This document shows positions 59,589-59,857 of a DNA stretch of 64,000 nt, in pieces. The translations under genes were made by a program, and so were the position numbers. Each line of letters starts with the position of its first letter. The first letter of the stretch is position 1. The notes below the pieces were generated by a model that did not search any database, had not been told where the DNA came from, and was given only the letters and a program-made list of their open reading frames with translations. Source of the DNA: Apostichopus japonicus (lineage: Eukaryota; Echinodermata; Holothuroidea; Aspidochirotida; Stichopodidae); contig NC_092569.1 in assembly GCF_037975245.1 (NCBI RefSeq), positions 16,538,001 through 16,602,000 on the forward strand, given 5' to 3'.

Positions 59589-59857
59589 TTACACTGGACG
59601 TATCTTCATTTCAGCGTACTTTATGTTGTAACTACTCCCTGGAAGATTATACCAGAGTATGCTCTTGTAATTAGTACTGCCGGCTGTGTACAATCCGTTT
59701 AGGTTAGAATAATAGTTATAATAATAATAATAACAATAACTACCGTACCACCACGCTCCGTGACAATACTGGGCGAAGTGATAATCAGAGCGAGGATCAT
59801 TGTCGCGATTGAAGGTCGAAAAAGATTGGTTCCTGTGATTCGCCATCCTGTCGTTTG
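59589..59857 (-). CDS. FReD-E exon 5: pocket half with thirteen-residue Tyr-rich loop
   Basis: The acceptor is ttcctttcgcag. The exon encodes [10 protein letters not shown] (first calcium Asp replaced by Asn), [11 protein letters not shown], then [13 protein letters not shown] before NLNGLY, a 13-residue loop with eight Tyr. On the plus strand the loop reads ataatagttataataataat and on, a near-perfect triplet repeat. This is the longest loop of the five. Confidence 0.88.

Follow-up and report, generated by a model that had tools for sequence, protein, structure and literature searches.

How animals without antibodies, as invertebrates are, recognize many different microbes is an open question, and a tandem set of fibrinogen-domain (FReD) genes in the sea cucumber Apostichopus japonicus, a deuterostome of importance to aquaculture as well, raises it in a specific form. 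The window analysed here is a 64-kb stretch of DNA (C9:16538001-16602000) that carries five FReD genes, A through E, on its minus strand. An initial annotation of this window proposed that a triplet repeat in exon 5 encodes a loop of variable length in the predicted ligand pocket, and that slippage of this repeat diversifies a recognition surface. If replacements and a coding repeat both diversify the pocket, this would amount to a germline, antibody-like strategy in echinoderms, with a fixed scaffold and a variable loop. The question is therefore whether the loop varies, by what route it does so, and whether selection retains the result.

Exons 3, 4 and 5 of genes A through E have GT/AG splice sites, join in frame and lead to a common C-terminus, KIRPV-stop (Table 1). 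The Pfam PF00147 (Fibrinogen_C) cut-off of 22 bits was exceeded by the three reading frames tested, which scored 105.8 bits (E exon 4), 57.1 bits (E exon 5) and 36.6 bits (D exon 3 frame). The best-matching solved chains are those of ficolin-1/2 and FIBCD1, and tenascin chains also match.

Table 1. Exons and exon-5 loops of the five FReD genes, in window coordinates.
Feature	Position	Strand	Remarks
Gene E exon 5	59589..59857	-	C-terminal FReD, calcium and pocket region, to stop; Fibrinogen_C 3e-15
Gene E loop	59706..59744	-	13 aa; GGT AGT TAT TGT (TAT)5 AAC TAT TAT TCT; TRF arrays 59703-59738, 59708-59739
Gene E exon 4	61407..61677	-	Fibrinogen_C 3.8e-30
Gene E exon 3	61994..62166	-	
Gene E exon 2 (candidate)	63506..63551	-	blast matches to it upstream of A-D
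Gene D exon 5	46229..46494	-	
Gene D loop	46349..46381	-	11 aa
Gene D exon 4	47744..48014	-	
Gene D exon 3	48337..48509	-	Fibrinogen_C 5.4e-09 for surrounding reading frame
Gene C exon 5	32644..32894	-	
Gene C loop	32761..32781	-	7 aa; KTYNYNV
Gene C exon 4	34408..34678	-	
Gene C exon 3	35249..35421	-	
Gene B exon 5	18137..18393	-	
Gene B loop	18254..18280	-	9 aa; GIYCYYYYA; TRF 18257-18275, period 3
Gene B exon 4	19572..19842	-	
Gene B exon 3	20402..20574	-	
Gene A exon 5	6145..6395	-	
Gene A loop	6262..6282	-	7 aa; KSNNYYV
Gene A exon 4	7841..8111	-	
Gene A exon 3	8660..8832	-	

The genome (671,581,487 bases, 35 contigs) was searched for further copies. Genes A through E, labelled L031-L035 in what follows, belong to a tandem array at C9:16.16-16.72 Mb that contains at least 37 copies of exon 5. 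A search with exon 4 gave at least 150 scored matches, and 35 of those listed lie at C9:16.157-16.720 Mb with at least 82% identity. With exon 5 of gene A as the query, 37 rows among the matches listed fall inside the array interval, 4/37 with a stop; a second exon-5 query yielded two further partial rows there. The loop was readable in 36 of the 37 exon 5s, which comprise 29 that are distinct in DNA (three of them stop-bearing). The best 150 gene A matches include 113 exon-5 rows outside the array, of which 112 were used for comparison and 111 were readable; this set represents the best gene A exon-5 matches listed rather than every FReD of the genome. Searches of viral contigs and genome contigs returned no confirmed relative.

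Within the array, the search pattern for exon 4 fitted 31 of 35 copies, each with 89 codons; exon 3 measures 173 nucleotides in 30 of 35 copies and, owing to a frameshift, 174 in L027, with 4 copies not matching its pattern, while the 72 codons compared in exon 5 outside the loop include one extra codon in 1/26 copies (D/L034). Some copies are broken, with a stop in exon 5 (L009, L022, L040, L042) or the exon-3 frameshift of L027, which is birth-and-death evolution. Genes A, B and C recur approximately 290 kb away as L015-L017 with identical exon 5 (C9:16.25-16.28 versus 16.54-16.57 Mb), representing either a recent segmental duplication or an assembly haplotig.

The five loops, of 7, 9, 7, 11 and 13 residues in A through E, have exactly the sequences first reported for them, although the interval originally assigned to the gene E loop (59707-59760) also takes in WWY and neighbouring residues. 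Variation in loop length was likewise borne out and extends well beyond the window. Among the 29 distinct array exon 5s, loops of 7 residues (11 copies) are accompanied by loops of 10 (5), 9 (3), 11 (3), 8 (2), 6 (2), 13 (2) and 14 (1), whereas the 111 other readable exon 5s among the matches listed have loops of 6 (103), 7 (3), 5 (3) or 10 (2). A length other than six is thus found in 27/29 array copies versus 8/111 others (Fisher p = 1.5e-19, with copies that are not independent). When the array is divided into two classes by the first loop residue, lengths range from 6 to 10 in class 1 and from 9 to 14 in class 2.

The position of this loop can be judged against FIBCD1. Published structures give the residues of its acetyl pocket (S1) as Tyr405, Cys414, His415, Tyr431, Ala432 and Trp443 (PMC3908420) and add (PMC10825690) an extended site of His382, His396, Arg412 and Asn413. 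In a phmmer alignment the array loop takes the place of FIBCD1 residues 412-417, which puts it at the predicted acetyl pocket, as the initial annotation had supposed. The Cys-His pair usual at this place, however, has been lost. Cys401 is replaced by L, M, F or R in 29/29 array exon 5s, the Cys414 position (loop position 3) is Cys in L045 only (1/29), and the His415 position (loop position 4) is occupied by C, N, Y, S or D and never by His (0/29). The Cys401-Cys414 disulfide with its cis-peptide, which characterizes acetyl-binding FReDs, was therefore found in none of the 29 array exon 5s, and classical acetyl binding cannot be assumed for the array. FIBCD1, the ficolins and tachylectin 5A have the FReD domain (PF00147) in common with the array, as well as the DND calcium motif of the window genes and the alignment of the loop to S1, but the array differs from them in lacking Cys401 and His415 and in having loops of 6-14 residues instead of 6.

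Other pocket residues are retained to varying degrees. The calcium site corresponding to Asp393/Asp395 (D18-N19-D20) is invariant in the five window genes, and Tyr431, by an equivalence that comes from sequence alignment only, is kept in A, B, C and E and is Cys in D. Residue 405 is Tyr in 12/29 array copies, Cys in 16/29 and Trp in 1/29. The presence of Cys405 coincides with that of a Cys in the loop, since 14 copies have both, 13 have neither, 2 have Cys405 only (L010 and the stop-bearing L042) and none has the loop Cys only (p = 1.8e-6, among related copies). This pattern points to a putative new disulfide from Cys405 to the loop, in or near the old pocket. The loops of L021 and L024 start like those of class 1, yet these copies carry the Cys pair with the loop Cys elsewhere in the loop, which suggests a second origin. 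The idea that the pocket disulfide moved in every copy was rejected because 13/29 have neither Cys. Within the array, variability is higher at the eight comparable FIBCD1 pocket positions than at other positions (permutation p = 0.0035; 1e-4 with their neighbours).

The DNA encoding the loop is distinctive beyond what chance would give. Perfect period-3 runs (at least 13 bp, homopolymers excluded) occur in four rows at three places in the 64 kb, and two of these three places are the loops of B and E. All 20 loop Tyr codons of A through E are TAT, versus 36/105 outside the loop in exons 3-5; the p-value of this test is overstated by the relatedness of the copies, and in tests of single genes p falls below 0.05 for B (0.039) and E (0.002) alone. 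Across the array the TAT:TAC ratio is 106:3 in the loop and 106:156 in the rest of the same exon 5s. Other FReD loops also favour TAT, less strongly (62:20 among the 111 matches listed). The 168 inner loop codons comprise 104 TAT codons and 52 that are one step from TAT, and 156 of the 168 have T as their last base.

A probable recent slippage step is seen in one pair of genes. Gene E and L037, 27 kb apart, are 99.48% identical over 4431 bp, and their exon 5s differ by two substitutions and one TAT, with (TAT)5 in E and (TAT)6 in L037. This is the difference expected of slippage and is the single clear unit-step event; no second independent recent pair of this kind occurs among the close pairs examined (16 with 0-3 non-loop differences). 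Only 2/16 of these pairs differ in loop length, both involving L037, and 0/10 pairs with identical non-loop exon 5 differ in the loop. Length change is therefore rare among recent duplicates, and length is not hyper-mutable. Loop lengths follow the exon-5 tree, which requires at least 11 length changes over its 26 tips, compared with a mean of 16.7 for shuffled labels. The proposed slippage in steps of three is partly supported by the TAT-coded loop and by one pair differing by one TAT, but not in the sense of a rapidly changing length, and the description 'microsatellite-driven' goes too far, as the TAT tract is at most one of several routes to diversity.

We propose that in this array the pocket-wall segment equivalent to FIBCD1 412-417 would have lost the conserved Cys401-Cys414 disulfide, and that this segment would then have become a loop of 6-14 residues made mostly of TAT codons and their one-step derivatives. 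Variety may have arisen by in-frame TAT slippage, by point mutation of these codons (TAT to AAT, TGT and others) and by duplication with exchange between copies. Diversifying selection on the predicted binding surface would retain part of this variety, and the relocated disulfide from residue 405 would tether the loop in 14 of the 29 distinct genes. Jointly, these steps are our best explanation of the sequences, held with slightly better than even confidence.

Another account is that constraint was relaxed, such that after loss of the Cys401-Cys414 disulfide the loop drifts neutrally by TAT slippage and mutation in a protein that is otherwise conserved. Such drift would agree with loop lengths that follow the tree and with Tyr being simply what TAT encodes. 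It also agrees with several results from codon models (M0, M1a and M2a), which were implemented in custom scripts, with no published package, and applied to 26 exon 5, 23 exon 4 and 20 exon 3 sequences after three stop-bearing exon 5s were dropped. Under M0, omega is below 1 throughout, with values of 0.41 for non-loop exon 5 (grid 0.33-0.51), 0.21 for exon 4 and 0.25 for exon 3. M2a was not favoured over M1a for the 72 non-loop exon-5 codons (p = 0.22), and class 2 alone, which has the long TAT loops, yielded no class of sites with omega > 1. Positive selection across the whole of exon 5 was rejected given its omega of 0.41.

Neutral drift accounts less well for the ends of the loop. When codons 412 and 413 and the last loop codon (417) were included with exon 5, M2a was favoured over M1a (p = 1.6e-5), and class 1 alone gave p = 1.6e-8; exons 3 and 4 gave no signal in the same comparison. 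With a separate tree for the N half of exon 5, the signal survived both in all 26 sequences (p = 9e-5, with 413 and 417 ranking highest) and in class 1 (p = 0.007; 413, 399 and 382). With its own tree the C half lost its signal (p = 0.66 and 1), and its sites are probably recombination artefacts, so that part of the selection signal is probably recombination. Array sites 436 and 444, at first candidates for selection, were downgraded after this split-tree test. With the exception of class 2 alone, all sets analysed give omega > 1 at codon 413, and the full set gives it at 417 too. We regard this as moderate evidence for diversifying selection at the loop ends, robust at 413 and extending to 417 in the full set.

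Comparisons of similar copies also argue against drift. In nine disjoint pairs with the same loop length and at most 20 non-loop differences, 25/231 loop nucleotides changed versus 97/1944 elsewhere in exon 5 (p = 8e-4), and the five closest pairs gave 12/138 versus 27/1080 (p = 7e-4), so the rate of change in the loop is 2-3.5 times that of the remaining exon. All 19 changed loop codons in the nine pairs are nonsynonymous and none is synonymous. Over all 26 close same-length pairs, which are not independent, 61 loop codon changes are nonsynonymous and 2 of 63 are synonymous, including one in the pair L014/L023. The excess of replacements at repeat codons could come partly from slippage and misalignment. 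The strict co-variation of Cys405 with the loop Cys and the raised variability of pocket positions outside the loop, found in two separate expansions (see below), are likewise not expected of drift. On this evidence, relaxed constraint is a serious contender that we nevertheless consider unlikely.

The second expansion lies outside the window. Of the 111 readable comparison exon 5s, 90 fit a fixed-length pattern and 27 distinct ones share a framework motif; 4 of these were dropped for an extra residue that puts their alignment out of register. The remaining 23 loci, among L069-L142, are located mostly at C9:26.4-29.3 Mb, and the others are spread over C9:34-36.5 Mb, C2, C7 and C11. Their loop is fixed at 6 residues. 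The distance at four-fold sites is 0.030, and yet 15/77 exon-5 codons carry 6-10 residues each, with synonymous pairs making up 0-3% at these 15 codons, whose positions overlap the ring of FIBCD1 pocket residues. In several of these columns the third base is nearly constant and the first two bases vary. A DGR-like, adenine-specific origin was rejected, since in some columns it is A that stands nearly unchanged at the third base and the variation falls on the first two. With separate trees for the two halves, M2a gave p = 2.7e-17 and 1.6e-23, and omega under M0 was 1.84 and 2.35. Column entropies of the sister set and the array are correlated (Spearman 0.62 over 72 columns; 0.47 over 54 variable columns), and entropy in the sister set is raised at the FIBCD1 pocket positions (p = 0.0084). 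Of all the observations, the sister expansion speaks most strongly for a diversified surface at the FReD pocket in this genome, and it may be a more striking finding than the loop of the array.

A third reading attributes the contrast to history alone, in that two old exon-5 classes were kept apart while gene conversion and unequal exchange homogenised exons 3-4 and a large part of the introns, and the loops would mark old lineages with no active process. The ages of the exons fit this reading. Among A through E, exons 3-4 are 94-99% identical in nucleotides, and exon 2, matched by short blast only, is 93-100% identical. Between {A,C} and {B,D,E}, dS is 0.7-1.4 for non-loop exon 5 (omega 0.11-0.21) versus 0.07-0.16 for exons 3-4. 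Intron 4 and the 3' flank can for the most part be aligned only inside {A,C} or inside {B,D,E}, and intron 4 of gene E (59858-61406) changes from A/C-type to B/D-type sequence at approximately 61048-61130, a recombination junction that joins the two classes. Exon 5 is thus an older exchangeable module beside homogenised exons, and this arrangement alone yields the near-invariance of exons 2-4 that the initial annotation described. That description is accurate for exons 3-4 and, for exon 2, holds as far as short blast matches go. The conclusion drawn from it, that variation is concentrated in exon 5, was misleading, given that exon 5 is older (dS roughly tenfold) and constrained overall. History alone does not, however, account for loops that vary in length and sequence inside each class and between copies that are 99.5% identical, and we judge this reading improbable.

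Signs of exchange among copies occur elsewhere in the array. L016 and L032 have identical exon 5 DNA, as do L036 and L038, within surrounding regions of 4.4 kb that are 95.7-96.1% identical, which suggests local gene conversion. Intron 4 of B, D and E contains (TA)n tracts of 47-66 copies (window 18908-19013, 47018-47112 and 60369-60500), and TRF listed no such tract for the same intron of A and C; the tracts are possibly linked to exchange between copies. Intron 3 had been considered as a class boundary ({A,B,C} versus {D,E}) and was dropped because blast and sliding windows revealed mainly an indel of approximately 240 bp.

Selection of a Tyr-rich loop for a chemical role unrelated to ligand recognition, for example in oxidative cross-linking or in the adhesion of a matrix protein that is secreted, is very improbable, for although 109/255 array loop residues are Tyr and tenascin-like matrix FReDs exist, with solved tenascin chains among the matches, the number of Tyr residues varies (compare DNCCCCSYHNS and, from a copy with a stop, KISNSNA) and codon use indicates an origin at the DNA level.

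Returning to the explanation that combines a TAT-derived loop with selection, a broader and more tentative proposal is that these FReDs might form a germline recognition repertoire, in which an invariant scaffold surrounds the former acetyl pocket with a hypervariable ring. The sister expansion would vary approximately 15 fixed codons by replacement, with hardly any synonymous change, and the array would add loss of the pocket disulfide, a TAT loop that lengthens and shortens in frame, and a relocated disulfide that tethers it. This proposal seems to us possible, at somewhat less than even confidence. The likeness of the Tyr-rich loops to antibody loops, which the initial annotation mentioned, is an analogy only. 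Invertebrate fibrinogen-domain genes of high diversity include the FREPs of Biomphalaria, which carry IgSF domains.

The FREP family of A. japonicus has been described as strongly expanded, with 21 tandem FREPs on Scaffold75, and was read as related to regeneration (Zhang et al. 2017, PMC5638244). A diversified recognition surface would instead point to immunity. In the main text of that paper, the terms 'positive selection' and 'hypervariable' occur 0 times, and the parts covered contain no mention of loop variation or coding repeats. We found no report of a coding repeat or a hypervariable pocket in sea cucumber FReDs among the titles and abstract openings searched. The clustered immune genes Sp185/333 (SpTransformer) of sea urchin offer a parallel, in that short tandem repeats, together with duplication and gene conversion, have been connected with their diversification (PMC5103432). 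As described there, the short tandem repeats surround genes and segmental duplications, whereas in the sea cucumber array the repeat lies inside the coding sequence of the fibrinogen domain. The array offers a testable case of a coding microsatellite that may alter a predicted binding site. Outside the exons, the window also contains two tandem duplications, at 24124-24436 and 38935-39245, of a related 149-159 bp unit.
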